From assembly GCA_021173225.1 (NCBI GenBank), contig JAJOLK010000006.1, positions 1 to 64,000 on the forward strand: DNA of 64,000 nucleotides. The letters run 5' to 3'. Below are positions 3,187 to 13,118 of this stretch, one piece after another. Under the pieces are notes generated by a model, which was not told the DNA's origin, did not search any database, and saw nothing but the letters and a program-made list of their open reading frames with translations. A program made the translations under genes and the position numbers. Positions within the stretch are counted from its first letter, which is position 1, and the number at the start of each line of letters is the position of its first letter. This DNA comes from Phycisphaerales bacterium PN19_bin_20 (GTDB lineage: Bacteria > Planctomycetota > Phycisphaerae > Phycisphaerales > UBA1924).

Positions 3187-5085
3187 GTGAAGCGATTCGA
3201 TCTGTTCAACGTCCCCGTCGAGCTTCGTGACGTGCTCGACTCGTGCCAAGGCTACACCGTAGCAACCACTATCGACGAGCTGCTCAATCTGTCGACGCGT
3301 GATGCGGACGCGACGGGGTGGCAAGAGATCGCCTTCGATGTGCCCGGCAAGGGCCGCGTCATTGAGGCACGTGCCTGCAGGGTGAGCAACGGGATCGCGG
3401 CCAACTACCTTGAGGTCTACATGCGTCGCCGCGACCCGGATTGCATGATCATTGGCGACACCAAGCCGACGAACAAACCGACGTACCGGGATCGCTATAA
3501 GGTCGACTTTGCCGAGGCGCGCCAGCAAACGTTCGCGTGGCTCAAGACGCAGAGGCTTGCGGTGTTTCCATTTGTTGCCGGCGGGTTTGAGAAGGGGATC
3601 GACGCGGTGGTCGTCGCGCCGGACAACTGCGGATTCTTTGCGCTCGGGCTAGCGCTACTGCAGGGAATCCGCGACCACACCAAGCTCGATCGTGAGTTCA
3701 ACCCAAAGGCCGTCGTGTACGTCGCGCCGCCGTTCCGGCACACCCACTTCGACGGCAAGCAGGTCGTTGTTCACAACCGACTAGATAATCTGCACGAGCT
3801 GTTCAGCTACAACCTCTATCCCGGTCCGAGTGCAAAGAAGGGCATCTACGGCGTGCTGCTGACGGCCGGAGAGAAGGAGCATTGGGTGACCGCACACTGC
3901 TCGACGGTCCGCGTCGTGACGCCCTATGGCAACCGCATCACCATTATGCACGAGGGCGCGTCTGGCGGCGGAAAGTCCGAGATGCTGGAGCACTCGCACC
4001 GCGAGCGCGATGGCCGATTGCTCTTGGGTACGCATGTCATCAGCAGTGATCAGAGATACATGACCCTGCCGCGCACGTGCGACCTCCATCCGGTCACCGA
4101 CGACATGGCGTTGTGCCATCCGAGCTTCCAGAAAGGTGATGGCCGGCTTCAGCTGCGCGATGCGGAAGAAGCGTGGTTCGTCCGCGTCAATCACATCGAG
4201 CGTTACGGCGTGGCCCCGCACCTGGAAGAAGTGACGATTCACCCGAAGGAGCCGCTCTTATTCCTGAACATAAAGGCAGCGCCCGGGGCGACGGCGCTGA
4301 TCTGGGAGCACATCGAAGACTCGCCCGGGAAGCGGTGCCCGAACCCGCGCGTGGTCATCCCCCGCAACAATGTCCCCAACATCGTCCACGGAGCGGTCAG
4401 CATCGATATCCGCAGCTTTGGCGTTCGCACGCCACCTTGCACGAAGGAAAACCCCAGCTACGGCATCATCGGAATGTTCCATGTCCTCCCACCGGCGCTG
4501 GCGTGGATCTGGCGGCTGGTCGCCCCGCGCGGGCACGCCAATCCGTCCATCGTCGCATCGGAAGGAATGTCCAGCGAAGGAGTGGGGAGCTATTGGCCGT
4601 TCGCGACGGGCCGACGCGTGGATCAGGCGAATCTGCTTCTGCGCCAGATCGTTGACACGCCGCGCGTACGTTACATCCTGTGCCCGAACCAGCACGTGGG
4701 CAGTTGGAATGTTGGATTTATGCCACAGTGGCTTGCCCGCGAATATCTTGCCCGGCGAGGTGGCGCGAAGTTCGGCCCCGCGGACCTGACCCCGGCGCGC
4801 TGTCATTTGCTGGGCTTTGCACTCCAGCAGTTGATCATCGAAGGGCAGCGCGTGCCGCTCTCGATGCTGCAGGTGGACAAATCGGCGGCGGTAGGCGAAG
4901 TCGCCTATGACGCTGGGGCGGCCGAGCTCGAGGCGTTTTTTCGGCAGCATCTGAGAGAGTTCATCGTGGAAGATCTTGACCCGCTGGGCAAGAAAGTGAT
5001 CGACTGCACCCTGAGCAGGGGCACAATGGCTGACTACGAATCGCTCATCAAGGGCGAGTCAGTGGTCGCGGCGCACGACGACTGA
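3187..5085 (+). CDS. DUF4914-family protein with PEPCK-like P-loop (632 aa)
   Basis: The GTG start is set by GGAGG at 3176-3180, 6 nt upstream. The diagnostic motif is HEGASGGGKSEM near residues 256-267, a Walker-A/kinase-1a P-loop like that of phosphoenolpyruvate carboxykinase-type ATPases. Later motifs include IIGMFHVLPPALAW and SEGMSSEGVGSYWPF. Length and order fit the DUF4914 family (about 620 residues), whose reaction is not established to my knowledge. It has no signal peptide or membrane span and is probably a cytosolic ATP- or GTP-dependent enzyme. It stands alone, with the recombinase remnant convergent right after its stop. Family assignment is from memory of motifs. Confidence 0.7.
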   Translation: MKRFDLFNVPVELRDVLDSCQGYTVATTIDELLNLSTRDADATGWQEIAFDVPGKGRVIEARACRVSNGIAANYLEVYMRRRDPDCMIIGDTKPTNKPTYRDRYKVDFAEARQQTFAWLKTQRLAVFPFVAGGFEKGIDAVVVAPDNCGFFALGLALLQGIRDHTKLDREFNPKAVVYVAPPFRHTHFDGKQVVVHNRLDNLHELFSYNLYPGPSAKKGIYGVLLTAGEKEHWVTAHCSTVRVVTPYGNRITIMHEGASGGGKSEMLEHSHRERDGRLLLGTHVISSDQRYMTLPRTCDLHPVTDDMALCHPSFQKGDGRLQLRDAEEAWFVRVNHIERYGVAPHLEEVTIHPKEPLLFLNIKAAPGATALIWEHIEDSPGKRCPNPRVVIPRNNVPNIVHGAVSIDIRSFGVRTPPCTKENPSYGIIGMFHVLPPALAWIWRLVAPRGHANPSIVASEGMSSEGVGSYWPFATGRRVDQANLLLRQIVDTPRVRYILCPNQHVGSWNVGFMPQWLAREYLARRGGAKFGPADLTPARCHLLGFALQQLIIEGQRVPLSMLQVDKSAAVGEVAYDAGAAELEAFFRQHLREFIVEDLDPLGKKVIDCTLSRGTMADYESLIKGESVVAAHDD

Positions 5086-5670
5086 TCAGGAGCGGGCGGC
5101 GATCAGCGCGAGCCGTTCGACCTTGCCCAACGGCAGGTCCGGCAGGCTCGCCACCGCCCCGGCCACGTCGAGGAGTTTCGGGTCGGTGTAGACGTTGGCC
5201 GTGAGGCTCGGGTCGCTGTGCCGCATCGCGGCCTGCGCCGTCCGGAGCGGCACGCCAGCCTTCGAGAGGTGCGTCCCGAAGGTATGCCGAAGGGCATGAA
5301 CGTCGATTGTGCGGCCACGCTCGTCGGTCTTGACGACGACCTCCTTGCCGCCGCGTTTCTCTATGCGGGCCAGACCGGCGAAGACCAGGTCGCGATCGAA
5401 GATGCGGATGAGCCCCTCGGGCACCTCGAAGAGCGGCTGATCGCTTCCGAGCGTCGCGGGGATCGGCTCGTCCGCCTGCGTGGCAGCGTTGGCAGCATTG
5501 CGCGCGGCCTGCTGCGGCGTGGGGGTGAGGGTGGGAGCGGGCTTGCGATTCGGCTCGTGCCAGCCCTGCGTGTTCGCGGGTTCGCCGCACTCAGCGGTTA
5601 CGGCCGCAACGGCGTCAGCAAACTCAATGCGCTCAAAGCCCTGCATCTCGATGCCGTGCGAGCGGTTCAC
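5086..5670 (-). pseudogene. truncated tyrosine recombinase (integrase), chimeric ORF
   Basis: Residues about 76-194 are the C-terminal catalytic half of a tyrosine recombinase: QPLFEVPEGLIRIFDRDL, then the H-x-x-R box HALRHTFGTHL (H125, R128), then MRHSDPSLTANVYTDP with H151 and the Tyr161 nucleophile. The N-terminal core-binding domain and the first catalytic Arg are missing, so it should be inactive. Residues 1-40 (GFERIEFADAVAAVTAECGE) appear to be the C-terminus of the decayed gene just upstream, joined in frame through a Pro/Ala-rich linker. A full integrase is usually about 350-450 residues. It probably mobilised an element of this island. Confidence 0.75.
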
Positions 5671-6183: not shown

Positions 6184-6780
6184 ACCCGCGAGAATAGCGA
6201 TGAGCGGTCGGCTGAGAGCCGAATTTCTTGAAAAGCCGTGCGTAAGCAGGCTGAATTGACTTATTCTAAGATCTTGTTCCCGAGCAAATATGCTTTATAC
6301 TTACGGTTCGAATGCTCACCAATGCCTCGGTCGGACTATGCCGACCCACCAAAGGTACCGGGGGGGGGTTTCGGACAGCCGTGGGCACCGAAGGTCCTGA
6401 GCAGCTCACGGTCGGCTGCGGCAAACCGGCTTCCTTGGCCTCTCGGGTGACACTGCAGTAGTGAGCGGCTAGCTAGAAGTAGTAAAGATGATGGTGGTTC
6501 AGTGAGCGTGGCACGCTAAAGTTCGGCGGATCGTGGGCAGATAGTGCCTTTGGTCAACCAAGGCTATCGGCGACGGTCTGGCGAGGGCCTTTGGACTATG
6601 AACCGACGTGAACTCTCGCACACGTTGCACGTCGCTTCACCTGACCGCGGCGGGTAGGCCGCCGTGCTAACGGCGGGACCAAGGTATTACTTGGCGGAGC
6701 CAACGGAAAGTGCGTGATCGAGCGGCGTTGGTCGATGCCGGTCGCGGGGGTGATCGCGACGGTCCATACGTTTTCAAGGA
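6184..6780. other. 600-bp gap without recognisable gene
   Basis: Base composition is more mixed than in the core genes, with an unusual run of nine G residues near 6361. ORFs on both strands lack any recognisable pattern. I see no tRNA, array or clear promoter. It probably marks the right border of the island. Confidence 0.5.
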
Positions 6781-6789
6781 GTGGGTAGC

Positions 6790-9399
6790 ATGAGCAGTGC
6801 GCTCGTTGGGATAACAGGCCCGTCACACGCGGGTGCAGCCGCCGGAGGGCCTAGCGGGATGCATAAGGATTTTCTCGACAGACTCAACGCGATTGCTCGA
6901 TCTCCGCTGCTGCTAGTGGCCTCTGACTATGACGGGACTTTGGCGGAGATTGTCCTCGACCCCGCGGTTGCCTTGCCGAACGCGGACGCGCTCAAGGGCC
7001 TGCTGGCGATTGGTGAAGTGCCTTGGACGAGCACCGCGATTGTTTCAGGTCGATCGGCCGTCGATCTTGCCAGGTTTCTCGGTCCGTTTCGCCCTGATTA
7101 CACCGTCGGCTCGCACGGGGCGGAGTGGCAGGATGCCGGCGTGACACTCAACACCGACGAGCGGGATCGGCTGGTTCAAGTCACCTGCAAGATCGCCGCG
7201 GTCGTCAAGCGCTGGCCCGGGCTGAGGTATGAGCTCAAGCCCGCCGGTGTTGCGTTGCACGTCCGCGCGGCCGACCCCGCGGTGGCGACACAGGCGATCG
7301 AATCGGCGATGGAACTCTGCGGATCGATGCCGAGTGTCCACATCCGTCACGGCAGCCAAGTCGTCGAGTTTATGGTCGTCGCCGCGAACAAGGGTGACGC
7401 CGTCCGTCGTGCTCGGCACGCTTCCGGCGCGACGGGCGTGATCTTCATCGGCGATGACCTGACCGACGAGGATGTGTTCAAAGGTTTGATGGCCGAGGAC
7501 CTTGGGATCAAGGTTGGAGAGGGCGAGACCGCGGCGCGGCATCGTGTCAGCGGCGTTCCCGACGTGGCGGAGATCCTGCAGCTGGTCGCGTCAATCCGGG
7601 ATGATTGGGCAAAGTCGCGATGGCTGGTACGGCTCGACTCGTGCGCGGTGCTGTCCGATCAGCGGACGGCCGCGGTCGTCTCGCCAGGGGCGCGCATCTC
7701 GTGGCTGTGTCTGCCTCGATTGGACTCCGCCGCCTTGTTCGCTGAGCTTGTGGGCGATTCGACGGCGGGCATGTTTGAGATCGCCCCTGCCGAGGGCGGC
7801 GCGCCGAGTCGCTGCGGGTATGACGGTGATTCGTTCGTCCTCGTGACCGAGTGGCCGGGGCTGCGTGTGACGGACTATTTGGATGGCTCTGCCGGGAGAG
7901 CATTTCAGAAGGCGGGGAGGGCCGATCTGATCCGCGTGATCGAAGGCACGACACCCGCTCGCATCCGCTTTGCGCCACGGCTGGATTACGGCCGCATCGC
8001 GACGCAACTGCGAGCCCGAGAGGATGGGCTGGAAATCGAAGGATCCAACGATCCGGTCGTCCTTCGCTCCAGCGGCGTTACGTGGACTATTTCGAGCGAG
8101 GGCGTTCACCATACTGCCGAGGCGGTCATCCAGCCCGCGTTGGGAGCGGTGGTTCTCGAACTTCGATACGGCACCGCGAATCTCGCTGCGAATATCGAGG
8201 GCGAACCGGAGCGTCGCGACCAGAACCGACGGTTCTGGTCAGGCTGGGCGAGCTCTCTTAAGCTGCCGTCGAGATGCCCAGAGCTGGTCAAGCGCAGCGC
8301 CTTGGTGCTCAAGGCGCTTTGTTACGGGCCGACGGGCGTGATCGCCGCCGCCGCGACGACCAGTCTTCCCGAGCTGATCGGAGGTACTCGCAACTGGGAC
8401 TATCGATACTGCTGGCCGCGGGATGCGGCCAAGGCCGCGGCCTCGCTGGTTCGGTTGGGCAACACCGGGCACGCTATGAAGTTCCTCGACTGGATGCTCG
8501 AAGTCGTGGATGGCTGCGAGACTCCTGAGCGGCTCCACCCGATCTACACGCTCTCGGGCAGCCACTTGCCGCCAGAAGCCGAGCTGGGACACCTAAGCGG
8601 ATTCGGGCTGAGCCGACCCGTGCGGATTGGAAACGCGGCGGCGAACCAGGTGCAGCTCGATGTCTTCGGACCGATCGTACAACTGGTTGCGCTCCTGGCA
8701 GGGCGTGGTGCTCCGATAGCACCTGACCACTGGCGGCTGACGCGCGCCATGGTGCGAGCGGTTGCGGCCCGGTGGTCCGAGCCCGACCACGGCATTTGGG
8801 AGATGCGACTGGAACGACGGCATCACGTCCATTCCAAGGTCATGTGCTGGCACACCGTGGATCAGGCCCTTGTTGTAGAACAAGCGGTGTGTGGCACACA
8901 GAATGCTGACTGGATAGCACTTCGCGACACTATCCGAGAGGATGTCCTTGCTCACGGATGGAACTCGGCCGAGAGCGCATTCACCGGCGCCTATGGACAG
9001 TCTTATCCCGACGCGGCTGTGCTCAGCATTGGGCTTAGCGGGTTGCTGCACCCCAGTGATCCGCGATGGGCTTTGACCGTCGAGTTCATCGCCAAGCGAC
9101 TACGCGACGGGCCGACGGTGCGGCGCTATGACGTCGACGACGGTCTCGGTGGCGGCGAGGGCGGCATGCACATCTGTACGGGCTGGCTCATCGAGTCGTT
9201 CCTTACACTGGGACGCGTGGATGAGGCGGTTCAACTCTTCGACGACTTCGCTAGCCTGTTTCGAGGTCCCGGCATTCTCACCGAACAGTTTGACCCGCAG
9301 ACTGGACTCGCGGTCGGGAACCTCGCGCAGGCGTATTCCCACTTGGCCTTCATCGATGCGGCGGTCGCCCTTGATCGAGCCCGTTCGCAAACACCGTAG
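6790..9399 (+). CDS. trehalose-6-phosphate phosphatase / GH15 fusion (869 aa)
   Basis: Two enzymes are fused. Residues about 35-265 are an OtsB-type HAD phosphatase: DYDGTLAEI near residue 45 with the Asp nucleophile, IVSGRS, and IGDDLTDEDVF late in the domain. It removes phosphate from trehalose-6-phosphate. Residues about 280-869 are a GH15 family (glucoamylase/trehalase-like) domain with WLCLPRLDS, the GH15 hallmark RNWDYRYCWPRDA near 534, and GGGEGGMHICTGWL. GH15 members hydrolyse alpha-glucosides, some of them trehalose. I choose ATG 6790 over the track's GTG 6781 because AAGGAG (6776-6781) sits 8 nt before it. The gene is followed after 9 nt by the OtsA-type gene, so the pair is an operon. 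Confidence 0.85.
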   Translation: MSSALVGITGPSHAGAAAGGPSGMHKDFLDRLNAIARSPLLLVASDYDGTLAEIVLDPAVALPNADALKGLLAIGEVPWTSTAIVSGRSAVDLARFLGPFRPDYTVGSHGAEWQDAGVTLNTDERDRLVQVTCKIAAVVKRWPGLRYELKPAGVALHVRAADPAVATQAIESAMELCGSMPSVHIRHGSQVVEFMVVAANKGDAVRRARHASGATGVIFIGDDLTDEDVFKGLMAEDLGIKVGEGETAARHRVSGVPDVAEILQLVASIRDDWAKSRWLVRLDSCAVLSDQRTAAVVSPGARISWLCLPRLDSAALFAELVGDSTAGMFEIAPAEGGAPSRCGYDGDSFVLVTEWPGLRVTDYLDGSAGRAFQKAGRADLIRVIEGTTPARIRFAPRLDYGRIATQLRAREDGLEIEGSNDPVVLRSSGVTWTISSEGVHHTAEAVIQPALGAVVLELRYGTANLAANIEGEPERRDQNRRFWSGWASSLKLPSRCPELVKRSALVLKALCYGPTGVIAAAATTSLPELIGGTRNWDYRYCWPRDAAKAAASLVRLGNTGHAMKFLDWMLEVVDGCETPERLHPIYTLSGSHLPPEAELGHLSGFGLSRPVRIGNAAANQVQLDVFGPIVQLVALLAGRGAPIAPDHWRLTRAMVRAVAARWSEPDHGIWEMRLERRHHVHSKVMCWHTVDQALVVEQAVCGTQNADWIALRDTIREDVLAHGWNSAESAFTGAYGQSYPDAAVLSIGLSGLLHPSDPRWALTVEFIAKRLRDGPTVRRYDVDDGLGGGEGGMHICTGWLIESFLTLGRVDEAVQLFDDFASLFRGPGILTEQFDPQTGLAVGNLAQAYSHLAFIDAAVALDRARSQTP

Positions 9400-9408
9400 A
9401 AGGAAAAC

Positions 9409-11730
9409 ATGTCACAAAAACAGCACCCATTCTCGTCTAGGTCGCTCCGCTTCGGCGTGCTCATCGCCATGCTTTCCTGCATCGCCACTGGGCTGATCTT
9501 CTGGTTTCAGGTCAACGGCGAGCACAGGCAGGGTCTCGACGACTTGACCCGTCGGGCGCAGCTTCTTGGGCACCGCATCGCTCCAATGGCGCGACAGGCG
9601 CTCGAACGGGACGATACCAAGGTCGCCGAGGTTATCAGTGATCGGTTCGACGGGCACTCACGCTTGCTCGGGATGGCGCTTTACCGCGCGGACGGAACCA
9701 AGATCGCAAGCGGACAAGGACTCTCCGAGTCCGCTGAATCAGTTGAAGGGTCCGTGAAGCAGGGGCTCGCCAACAAGGCCGAATTTAGCGAACTGCGCCG
9801 TGACCGAAGCGGCAGCACGCACGTGCTCGTCCAGCCGATCGCCGACGAGAAAGGTGATCTGAAAGGGGCGGTCGTGGTGCTCCACGACGCGCTTTATCTT
9901 GAAGAGCGGATGACCCGTGGCATCCTCCGCGGCCTGCTCTGGTCACTAAGCATCGCGGCGGCCATGTTCTTCATCACTACCGGCATCGCGTGGACTTTCT
10001 TTGAACGACCTCTGCACCTACTTGCGGCGTGGATGCGGCGGCTGCGGTTCGGGAACACGCCCGAGTTGCCGCCGCGCGGCTTGCCCGTTGCCAAGCTAAC
10101 AGACGAAACCGTGCATCTGGCGGCGTCGTTCCGAGCCGCCCGCAGTAAAGAACGCGACGAGGCGCAGGAGATCGTTCGCTCTGACAAGGCCTGGACTCGA
10201 GATCGACTCCGCGCACACGCGATCGATGCGCTCGGCGGCGAGTCACTGGTTGTGGTCAGCAATCGCGAGCCGTACATGCACCAGCTTCGGGATGGCAAGC
10301 CAACACTGGTGCGTCCCGCCAGTGGCCTGGTGACCGGCTTGGACCCGGTACTTCGTGCGACCGGCGGGCTCTGGGTGGCTCACGGCGCGGGCGATGCCGA
10401 TCGGCAGACCGCCGACGCTTCGGGTTGCATCCCGGTCCCGCCCGAGGATGCTCGCTACACACTCAAGCGCGTCTGGATCACCAAGGAAGAAGAGCAGGGT
10501 TACTATTACGGCTTCTCGAACGAAGGACTGTGGCCGCTCTGCCACCTCACGCACGAGCGGCCCACCTTCCGGACCGGTGACTGGGAGAAATATGTTCGAG
10601 CCAACCAGCGGTTCGCCGATGCCGTTCTCGAGGAGATCGGGAGCGAGAAGGCCGTTATCATGGTCCAGGACTACCAGCTTGCTCTCGTTCCCGGCATGCT
10701 CAAGGCCAAGCGGCCCGACCTGCGCGTGGGCCTCTTCTGGCACATCCCGTGGCCTAACGCCGAAGCCTTCCGCATCTGCCCTTACCGCGTGGAACTCCTG
10801 CAGGGCATGCTCGGCGCTGACCTCCTTGGCTTCCACCTCCAGCAGCACTGTAATAATTTCCTCGAGACTGTCGACCGCATGGTCGAGGCCAAGCTCAACT
10901 GGGACCACTTCTCAGCGGAACGTAAGGGGCACACGTGCCTCGTTCGTCCATTCCCCATCAGCGTGCAACCTTGGTCCGAGCGCGGCGTCGCTGCGCCGGC
11001 CGATCTCGAGTCACAGATCGCGCTGCTCCGCCAGCAGCATCAGCTCAACGGCTGCATGGTCGGTGTCGGCGTTGATCGAATCGACTACACCAAAGGCATC
11101 GCCGAGCGTTTCCGCGCGATCGAGCGGCTCTTCGAGAAGCATCCTGAGCTCAAGGGCAAGTTCACGTTCGTTCAGCTCGGCGCCCCCAGCCGCGTTCACA
11201 TTCCTCGGTACCGCGACCTCGTCACAGACCTCGAGCAGTTGGCCGACTCGATCAATTGGAAGCTTCAAGCAGACGGGTGGAAGCCGATCCACTTCCTGGT
11301 GGATCACCACGAAGGACCGGCGGTCTACGCCTTTCTCAAGATGGCCTCAGTCTGTATCGTCAGCTCGCTTCACGATGGAATGAACCTGGTCGCCAAGGAG
11401 TTCGTCGCGGCCAAGTCTGAGGCGGCGAACGAGGGCGTAGACGCCCACGGCATTCCCGAGGGCGTACTGGTCCTCTCGGAGTTCGCCGGCGCGGCCCGCG
11501 ATCTACCCGAGGCGCTCATCATCAACCCCTACGACACTGAAGAGTTCGCGGCAGCGATCCATCAAGCCATCACGATGGAGGCCAAGGAACGCGTCCAACG
11601 TATGACGCGAATGCGCCTGCGTATCGAGGAGTTCAATATTTACCGATGGGCAGCGGACTTCCTTACGTCGCTCACGCAGTCCAAGGGACCAGTGGAAGAG
11701 GTGAAGACCAGCGCCACCGCTGCACCGTAA
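9409..11730 (+). CDS. otsA: membrane sensor domain / trehalose-6-phosphate synthase fusion (773 aa)
   Basis: The C-terminal 500 residues are a GT20 trehalose-6-phosphate synthase: VVVSNREPY near 281, ASGLVTGLDPVL, VQDYQLALVPGML, GLFWHIPWPN, GVDRIDYTKGIAERF, SLHDGMNLVAKEF. It joins UDP-glucose (or a related donor) to glucose-6-phosphate. Unusually it carries an N-terminal module: TM1 (about 14-34), an extracytoplasmic domain of about 135 residues resembling histidine-kinase sensor regions (LYRADGTKIAS, VQPIADEKGDLKGAVVVL), TM2 (about 171-193) and a HAMP-like juxtamembrane stretch. The synthase is therefore probably membrane-bound and may respond to an external signal. AAGGAAAAC precedes the ATG. 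The phosphatase fusion lies 9 nt upstream. Confidence 0.88.
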   Translation: MSQKQHPFSSRSLRFGVLIAMLSCIATGLIFWFQVNGEHRQGLDDLTRRAQLLGHRIAPMARQALERDDTKVAEVISDRFDGHSRLLGMALYRADGTKIASGQGLSESAESVEGSVKQGLANKAEFSELRRDRSGSTHVLVQPIADEKGDLKGAVVVLHDALYLEERMTRGILRGLLWSLSIAAAMFFITTGIAWTFFERPLHLLAAWMRRLRFGNTPELPPRGLPVAKLTDETVHLAASFRAARSKERDEAQEIVRSDKAWTRDRLRAHAIDALGGESLVVVSNREPYMHQLRDGKPTLVRPASGLVTGLDPVLRATGGLWVAHGAGDADRQTADASGCIPVPPEDARYTLKRVWITKEEEQGYYYGFSNEGLWPLCHLTHERPTFRTGDWEKYVRANQRFADAVLEEIGSEKAVIMVQDYQLALVPGMLKAKRPDLRVGLFWHIPWPNAEAFRICPYRVELLQGMLGADLLGFHLQQHCNNFLETVDRMVEAKLNWDHFSAERKGHTCLVRPFPISVQPWSERGVAAPADLESQIALLRQQHQLNGCMVGVGVDRIDYTKGIAERFRAIERLFEKHPELKGKFTFVQLGAPSRVHIPRYRDLVTDLEQLADSINWKLQADGWKPIHFLVDHHEGPAVYAFLKMASVCIVSSLHDGMNLVAKEFVAAKSEAANEGVDAHGIPEGVLVLSEFAGAARDLPEALIINPYDTEEFAAAIHQAITMEAKERVQRMTRMRLRIEEFNIYRWAADFLTSLTQSKGPVEEVKTSATAAP

Positions 11731-12371
11731 CTCGTCCTAATGAAGCGATTCGCGCCGAGGCGACACCCGCCCACGCCTATCGAGGCATGGTAAAGTTCGT
11801 ACAGACATCGAGGCAAAGGACAACGTCAGCGGCGCTCCGCGGCCCCAAGCGTTCCGAGACGGCCGGACGCGCGTCCGTAAGCTCTGCTCACTGCAACGCC
11901 CCGATGATCGCAAGCAGGCCTGAGATGCAAGCCGGTCTATGCGCGCTTCGCCGATGACCTCCGACCCTCGAAGCGACTTGGGCGGCGCGAAATCGTTCGT
12001 TTCCCGGCCGTCCCACCTTTCAACCGTCCCGTTGAAGACCGAGTGCGCACCGTCGACGACCTTATTCCACCCTTCGACCGAGGGCACCGCGAGGTCAACG
12101 CGGGCGGTCAGAGCGCCGCATGCTCCGAAACGAGAGCAAGCGTGCATGCTCGATAACGGCTACAAGCTTAAAGATGGACCTGATCAAAGCGATGTTCGTG
12201 TTCTGATAGCAGATAAAGCGTCCTTCATCTGCTATTAGTAACGCACTTAGGGCAACCGCTGCCGATCGCGATCAGGCAAATTCGCCGCGTTTGAGCGACT
12301 GCCGTCCGCAGTTGTGCGTGTCAGGGCAGATAGTCGGTAACTTGTATAGGAGAGAGTCAGAAGAGACGTTT
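11731..12371. other. 640-bp intergenic region
   Basis: No convincing gene is seen; the short ORFs on both strands are compositional. It holds the hairpin at 12206-12235 and presumably the promoter of the DUF3494 gene, which I cannot pin down. Confidence 0.5.
12206..12235 (+). promoter_or_regulatory. perfect 9-bp inverted repeat upstream of DUF3494 gene
   Basis: ATAGCAGAT (12206-12214) and ATCTGCTAT (12227-12235) form a perfect inverted repeat with a 12-nt spacer, extendable by one wobble pair. It lies 136 bp before the DUF3494 start. No T-run follows. It could be an operator or an RNA hairpin. Confidence 0.35.
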
Positions 12372-13118
12372 ATGAAGTGCAATACCCGTGCCGTTCTTCT
12401 ATCAGCCTTTGCCGCGGCGTTGAGCTGCCAATCACAGGCAGCCATTCTCGGCAGCGCCCAAAGCTTTGCGGTGCTGGGAGGCTCAACTGTCACGAACACC
12501 GGGCCGACGATCAGCAACGGTAGTCTGGGCGTCTGGCCTGGTGCTGCGGTCACCGGATTCCCGCCGGGAGTTGTCAATGGGACGATCCACTCCGGTGATG
12601 CTGTCGCGCAGCAGGCGCAACGTGACGCGGTCACGGCGTACAACATGCTCGCTGGCCTGGTTCCGACACAGAACCTGACCGGCACCAACCTCGGAGGTTT
12701 GACACTCACACCCGGCGTTTATTTCTTCTCATCCTCAGCGTTCCTTACGGGAACTTTGACCCTCGATGCGATGGGCGATCCGGGTGCCCGCTTTGTGTTC
12801 CAGACCGGCAGCACCCTCATCACCGCCACCAATGCGTCCGTCGTGATGATCAACGGAGCGAATGCATGCGATGTCTACTGGCAGGTGGGCAGTGCGGCCA
12901 CGCTTGGCACCAACACCTCGTTCCAAGGGAACATTCTGGCAATGACGAGCATCACGCTGAACACTGGTGCCTCCATCGTTGAGGGCCGCGCACTCGCTCA
13001 AAGCGGCGCGGTCACCATGGACTCAAATGTCATCACGGCGGCCTGCATTCCAACACCGGGTGCCTCGTTGCTGATCGGCGTCGCGGTAATTGGATTAGCC
13101 TGCCGCAGACGTCGTTGA
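12372..13118 (+). CDS. DUF3494 (ice-binding-like) exported protein with C-terminal sorting tail
   Basis: From ATG 12372 there is a signal peptide (MKCNTRAVLLSAFAAALSC...AAILG). Then the DUF3494 pattern follows: LGSAQSFAVLGGSTVTNTG, SLGVWPGAAVTGF, GDAVAQQAQRDAVTAY, LTPGVYFF, LTLDAMGDPGARFVFQ, GSAATLGTNTSFQGNILA. The family is a beta-solenoid fold; some members bind ice, many are adhesins. The end, IPTPGASLLIGVAVIGL then CRRRR, is a planctomycete PEP-CTERM-like sorting tail, so it is probably processed and kept at the surface. The 27 residues upstream in the track ORF precede the signal peptide and are excluded. It follows the trehalose operon, but no shared transcript is evident. Confidence 0.85.
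   Translation: MKCNTRAVLLSAFAAALSCQSQAAILGSAQSFAVLGGSTVTNTGPTISNGSLGVWPGAAVTGFPPGVVNGTIHSGDAVAQQAQRDAVTAYNMLAGLVPTQNLTGTNLGGLTLTPGVYFFSSSAFLTGTLTLDAMGDPGARFVFQTGSTLITATNASVVMINGANACDVYWQVGSAATLGTNTSFQGNILAMTSITLNTGASIVEGRALAQSGAVTMDSNVITAACIPTPGASLLIGVAVIGLACRRRR

Follow-up and report, generated by a model that had tools for sequence, protein, structure and literature searches.

We found that the only GT20 protein encoded in the genome of the planctomycete Phycisphaerales bacterium PN19_bin_20 is a trehalose-6-phosphate (T6P) synthase-like enzyme with a 275-residue N-terminal module in front of its catalytic domain, and that this module is predicted to be a membrane receptor of histidine-kinase-like build. 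The window, a 64,000-nucleotide stretch of contig JAJOLK010000006.1, holds the gene in a two-gene operon, behind a gene for an OtsB phosphatase fused to a GH15 hydrolase. On balance, we favor the view that the synthase is a receptor-enzyme, in which T6P synthesis would be gated by an extracytoplasmic signal. The receptor-synthase fusion occurs across many bacterial phyla and is apparently undescribed: an open-access literature search found no description of a sensor-GT20 fusion or of an OtsB-GH15 fusion, and domain-architecture databases may list the fusion without comment.

Results

A two-gene trehalose operon

The operon consists of two genes on the + strand, at 6790-9399 and 9409-11730. As previously noted, they lie 9 nt apart, with the stop codon of the first ending at 9399 and the ATG of the second at 9409. 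The longest open reading frame of the first gene covers 6781-9399 and opens at a GTG at 6781; because a ribosome-binding-like AAGGAG (6776..6781, +) stands 8 nt upstream of the ATG at 6790, this ATG appears to be the better start, yielding an OtsB-GH15 fusion of 869 amino acids (6790..9399, +; supported by the ORF listing, Pfam, and the start-site sequence). A second ribosome-binding-like site, AAGGA, lies inside the 9-nt gap (9400..9404, +) and precedes the coding sequence of the receptor-type synthase of 773 amino acids (9409..11730, +; ORF listing, Pfam, and relatives). At the operon, an Rfam search returned no riboswitch or structured RNA at E values up to 1, and a scan for promoters and terminators found no more than in shuffled sequences. 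With respect to a second trehalose route, the genome was searched for TreS, TreT, and GH37 trehalase; no TreS scored above cut-off, and neither TreT nor GH37 was found.

Upstream of the operon, the window encodes a DUF4914 protein (3187-5085; 1010 bits) and a C-terminal fragment of a tyrosine recombinase (5086-5670, −). Just downstream, at 12291-13118, lies a gene for an ice-binding-like protein (PF11999) with a PEP-CTERM-like tail, the true start of which is probably internal to the listed ORF. This gene fits a freezing or desiccation setting, and we do not count it as evidence.

The first protein unites Trehalose_PPase, TREH_N, and Glyco_hydro_15 domains, all far above their Pfam cut-offs, which bears out the proposed fusion of OtsB with GH15. 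The OtsB domain (6925..7515, +) scored 109.8 bits against TIGR00685 (cut-off 68.05) and 89.5 bits against PF02358 (cut-off 27), and it contains the HAD motifs DYDGTL, SGRS, NKGDA, and GDDLTDED. It is followed by TREH_N, the N-terminal domain of trehalase-like GH15 enzymes (7597..8238, +; PF19291, 212.7 bits), and by the GH15 catalytic domain (8281..9363, +; PF00723, 165.8 bits), in which a published motif rule (PMC10232917) places the candidate catalytic glutamates at codons 8800-8802 (GIWEMR) and 9283-9285 (TEQF). With both candidate glutamates kept, the domain appears catalytically complete. A structure search with the GH15 half as query gave just spurious repeat-protein matches.

The earlier note had pointed out that GH15 enzymes include bacterial trehalases, and the profile searches place this GH15 in the trehalase-like branch: in addition to the TREH_N match, the best NCBIfam models were the archaeal trehalases TreH1 (332.5 bits) and TreH2 (262 bits), with other GH15 models far lower (oligosaccharide amylase, 31 bits; glucan glucosidase, 15 bits). 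Although it is the best model, TreH1 was matched below the trehalase equivalog cut-off (NF041084, 820 bits). The catalytic-region triplets WEM and TEQ likewise depart from the patterns published for GH15 trehalases, WE[FDEV] and [SGA]E[EH], while glucoamylases are described by [SPN]EQ (PMC10232917). These two observations favor a glucoamylase- or dextrinase-type hydrolase, or another alpha-glucoside enzyme, that would feed glucose into trehalose synthesis rather than degrade trehalose, a reading that we consider doubtful but worth keeping in view. Against it stand the wide lead of the trehalase models, the presence of TREH_N, the lack of a GH37 trehalase in the genome search, and the orthologues of the family, among which EQ and EE alternate at the second catalytic site, so that the letter at this position does not separate functions here. 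Because the best models are trehalases while the score stays below cut-off and the triplets differ, we refer to the domain as a trehalase-like GH15 of unproven specificity. Judged from its sequence, it is likely to act as a trehalase, with trehalose as the presumed substrate.

Hydropathy predicted no membrane segment in the OtsB-GH15 protein. The proposal that trehalose is both made and degraded at the membrane therefore holds for T6P synthesis only.

A divergent GT20 domain with conserved substrate contacts

The GT20 domain of the synthase spans aa 279-756 (10243..11676, +; Pfam Glyco_transf_20 and alignment) and scored 394 bits against PF00982, well over the gathering score of 32.5. Against the OtsA equivalog model TIGR02400 it reached 414 bits, below the cut-off of 564.85 bits, and we therefore file it as a divergent GT20 T6P-synthase-like enzyme and not as a TIGR02400 member. 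We checked eleven contact residues by alignment, using the conserved contacts of mycobacterial OtsA (PMC6879718) as the residue list. The glucose-6-phosphate contacts R286, Y366, D421, and Q423 are kept, together with R595 from the C-terminal half, as are the nucleotide-sugar contacts R557, K562, D656, N659, L660, and E664; nearly all are invariant in 24 diverse members. Assignment as a glucosylglycerol-phosphate synthase was rejected, given a score of 282 bits compared to 414 bits for OtsA and the retained glucose-6-phosphate contacts. From the alignment, we infer that the domain is active as a T6P synthase.

A predicted receptor module in front of the synthase domain

Two hydrophobic segments, at aa 15-33 and 171-189, both precede the GT20 domain. 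Hydropathy, predicted structure, and fold matching concur in supporting the suggestion that this OtsA carries a two-helix membrane sensor with an extracytoplasmic domain. The window sequence alone matched no sensor or HAMP model in Pfam above gathering score (SMP_2, PAS_10, and HAMP appeared only at E values of 0.02-0.08), so a profile and a fold search built on more sequences were needed, for which we aligned 79 such N-terminal modules from many phyla. Individual members matched sCache_3_2 (25/79), HAMP (18), and CHASE8 (16), as well as models of WalK, CreC, and YfiN. AlphaFold2, run on this alignment, gave a mean pLDDT of 90.8, with a helix at 11-65, a sheet within 86-160, and helices at 162-214 and 228-258. 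The module is thus modeled as a TM-Cache-TM-HAMP receptor, in which two long helices flank a mixed alpha/beta sensor domain and a HAMP domain follows the second helix. In a Foldseek search of the PDB, the first match was full-length WalK (9a5d; E 7e-10, TM score 0.68 over 268 columns), followed by the sensor domains of KinD, CitA, DcuS, and WalK.

Along the gene (all +), transmembrane helix 1 (aa 11-34; 9439..9510; hydropathy and AlphaFold) extends to aa 65 in extracytoplasmic helical form and leads to the predicted Cache-like sensor domain (aa 78-161; 9640..9891; profile matches, AlphaFold, and Foldseek). Transmembrane helix 2 follows (aa 162-190; 9892..9978; hydropathy and AlphaFold), then the HAMP domain (aa 191-245; 9979..10143; profile matches, AlphaFold, and conservation) and a signalling helix with linker (aa 246-278; 10144..10242; AlphaFold and conservation). 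Across the 79 sequences, the HAMP hallmarks P201 in the first helix and E233 at the start of the second each show 97% conservation, and the linker residue W262 is invariant (100%). A model of the full-length synthase reached a pLDDT of 82 and a pTM of 0.62, but the stretch between the HAMP connector and aa 260 was modeled with low confidence, and we therefore claim no geometry between the domains.

The module is under purifying selection, the Cache domain included, with dN/dS values of 0.07-0.27 for the module and 0.06-0.32 for the Cache domain; these values are rough, as dS was high. The Cache domain is among the least conserved parts of the synthase. Selection and recurrence across phyla together defeat one of the refutations named in the earlier note, in which the N-terminal domain would be an artefact of annotation. 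The fusion might still have arisen as an assembly or frame error of one metagenome-assembled genome, given that the window comes from a 59-contig draft and that the copy in one relative (G067) is broken by two in-frame TGA codons. However, the open frame and its architecture are shared by nine relatives at 64-78% identity and by members from other phyla at about 40-58%; such a continuous frame in independent assemblies from many phyla virtually rules out this explanation. The broken G067 gene (locus L028) resembles a pseudogene, with no OtsB-GH15 found adjacent to it.

In Acidobacteriota (e.g., G535:C79 and G644:C25), the sensor module also matched open frames of ~480-620 amino acids without GT20, at E values down to 1e-28. 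These frames are probably histidine kinases and a likely source of the sensor module.

Distribution across phyla

Within the family and order of the window, 60/150 genomes had a GT20 match. Receptor-type synthases occurred in ten of them besides the window's own genome, counting the broken G067 copy, and the remaining GT20-bearing genomes encoded plain synthases that matched only the GT20 part. Scanning a single genome for each species yielded at least 574 relatives of the synthase, of which the best 80 came from Phycisphaerales, Gammaproteobacteria, Acidobacteriota, Nitrospirota, Omnitrophota, Elusimicrobiota, Gemmatimonadota, Patescibacteria, and others. Among these best 80 loci, 72 had at least 245 residues ahead of GT20, and 74 had two or more predicted transmembrane segments. 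The search for the sensor-GT20 architecture across planctomycetes, suggested at the outset, gave full-length matches in 3/392 Planctomycetota genomes, the window included; the corresponding counts, with the centre genome counted, were 22/247 in Acidobacteriota and 3/399 in Pseudomonadota. At one locus (L068), the contig is named Phycisphaerales and the synthase groups within Competibacteraceae, reflecting either transfer or mis-binning. Another contig named Phycisphaerales encodes a GT20 identical to the one in G003, a genome from the same genus as the window.

The same GT20 subfamily also exists in other settings, namely on a single transmembrane helix in Aminobacter (L022), on a transmembrane hairpin with HAMP and no Cache domain (L129 and L135), and with no sensor at all, in the Planctomycetota families f50/f78 and at L146-L153.

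Apparent exchange of synthases and of their modules

An OtsB-GH15 fusion adjoining otsA is common in the Phycisphaerales family of the window, mostly with a plain OtsA. The operon had initially been singled out as a make-and-break unit of two fusion enzymes; both fusions are real, yet such an operon is not the unusual part, being common in the family and having otsB-GH15-otsA counterparts elsewhere. The unusual part is the fusion of receptor and synthase. In the GT20 tree, a long branch with 100% support separated the receptor-type clade from the plain OtsAs of the family, so the two kinds of synthase do not represent variants of a single local gene. In the OtsB-GH15 tree, which was midpoint-rooted and included two partial sequences, the kind of partner switched three or more times along supported branches. 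Gene order differs as well: the plain otsA precedes otsB-GH15 (e.g., in G045), while the receptor-type otsA usually follows it. These trees indicate that a receptor-type synthase displaced a plain OtsA in the same operon, of which the OtsB-GH15 fusion is the older member.

Several such operons have genes for site-specific recombinases nearby, including serine recombinases at L027 and L031. In another genome (G060; L138 3751-6659), a second OtsB-GH15 copy is followed by a remnant of the sensor N-terminus only and then by an unrelated gene; this copy is a decayed duplicate.

One synthase (G021; L026 4925-7267) combines two lineages. Its residues 1-240 are 83% identical to the G023 lineage versus 48% to the window, while its residues 241-773 are 88% identical to the window lineage versus 74% to G023. 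The best breakpoint fell at aa 234-247, with 0/2000 permutations as extreme. This protein is a natural chimera of two receptor-synthase lineages, in which the sensor was swapped at the HAMP exit, at the HAMP/GT20 junction. Sensor and catalytic parts thus exchange as modules, in register.

Neighboring genes in other phyla

In other phyla, the receptor-type synthase typically occurs with otsB. DUF5752 (PF19027) was present in 42/80 of the best loci and a TreT-type GT4 in 41 of them. At L069 (2272-3648), DUF5752 is fused behind an MscS-type channel domain, within a cassette of receptor-type synthase, otsB, TreT-like GT4, and DUF5752; ORFs of similar length occur at L070, L082, and L102, and DUF5752 stands alone in about 38 other loci. 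An open-access search found no paper on DUF5752, which may be an osmotic regulator. Indirectly, its association with MscS points to turgor or osmotic stress as the signal. Neither DUF5752 nor TreT was found in the window genome, where GH15 presumably takes the breakdown role.

Discussion

How stress outside the cell is coupled after translation to the rate of compatible-solute synthesis is poorly known in bacteria. Our analysis suggests that in a cell carrying the receptor-type synthase, an outside signal probably switches trehalose synthesis directly. The TM-Cache-TM-HAMP module, histidine-kinase-like and presumably dimeric, would receive an extracytoplasmic signal, probably of an osmotic or desiccation type. 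A conformational change would then travel through HAMP and the short helix to the GT20 domain and raise or lower its output of T6P from NDP-glucose and glucose-6-phosphate, with no phosphorelay and no new transcription. The soluble bifunctional OtsB-GH15 would complete the pathway, with OtsB dephosphorylating T6P to trehalose and GH15 hydrolysing trehalose to glucose once it is unwanted.

Several observations count against this reading: the Cache domain is among the least conserved parts, the window protein matches no single Pfam sensor family above cut-off, the synthase scores below the TIGR02400 cut-off, and the window genome lacks the DUF5752/MscS link. In addition, since the same GT20 subfamily exists without the sensor, catalysis does not require the sensor, which might serve solely as an anchor. 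The N-terminal module would then merely place T6P synthesis at the membrane, as a scaffold without signal transfer, in keeping with the members on one transmembrane helix, the hairpins that lack Cache, and the members without any module. We regard this as rather unlikely. Anchoring alone would call neither for a Cache domain that is under purifying selection and retains its length and fold in many phyla, nor for 97% conservation of both HAMP hallmarks; moreover, the hairpin variants retain HAMP, and the G021 chimera is joined in register at the HAMP exit. We accordingly continue to favor receptor gating. A broader proposal, to which we give about even weight for and against, is that these proteins form a widespread, undescribed receptor class with a biosynthetic enzyme as output, in which trehalose synthesis is switched directly by an outside signal (probably water or osmotic stress), with no kinase, second messenger, or transcription in between, and which here, together with the fused phosphatase-trehalase, would form a switchable make-and-break cycle.

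A synthase bearing its own histidine-kinase-type receptor makes the coupling of stress to synthesis directly testable in one protein. The G021 chimera marks where the parts exchange, which makes sensor swaps practical and perhaps a tool, and with the fusion present in so many phyla, the answer would reach beyond one planctomycete.

Compared to known systems, the window synthase resembles OtsA (GT20) of Escherichia coli and Mycobacterium thermoresistibile (5jij) in its GT20 domain and in all checked contact residues, and it differs by its fusion to a transmembrane receptor, its separate GT20 clade, and its score below the TIGR02400 cut-off. Mycobacterial OtsA is regulated by soluble allosteric ligands (PMC6879718). 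The N-terminal module shares topology, predicted fold, and HAMP hallmarks with receptors of the WalK/YycG, CitA, DcuS, KinD, and YfiN type, the outputs of which are kinase, cyclase, or methyl-accepting domains, whereas here the output is a sugar-nucleotide glycosyltransferase. GH15 trehalases such as TreH of Sulfolobus/Thermoplasma and the mycobacterial trehalase have the same TREH_N and GH15 domains and two candidate catalytic glutamates; in contrast, the window GH15 is fused behind OtsB and has different catalytic-region triplets. The same OtsB-GH15 fusion occurs in Nocardia farcinica at 46% identity, and the otsB-GH15-otsA operons of Paracoccus and Sulfitobacter hold the same activities side by side, with a plain soluble GT20 as the otsA product in Paracoccus. 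Lastly, the otsB/DUF5752/GT4 cassettes of other phyla recall the tpsp-gt-msc operon of Thermoproteus tenax, where a trehalose synthase is controlled post-translationally and a membrane protein is encoded in the operon; there, a TPS-TPP fusion is activated by its GT4 partner, with the channel as a protein of its own (PMC3634074), whereas in the window the predicted sensor is part of the synthase itself.
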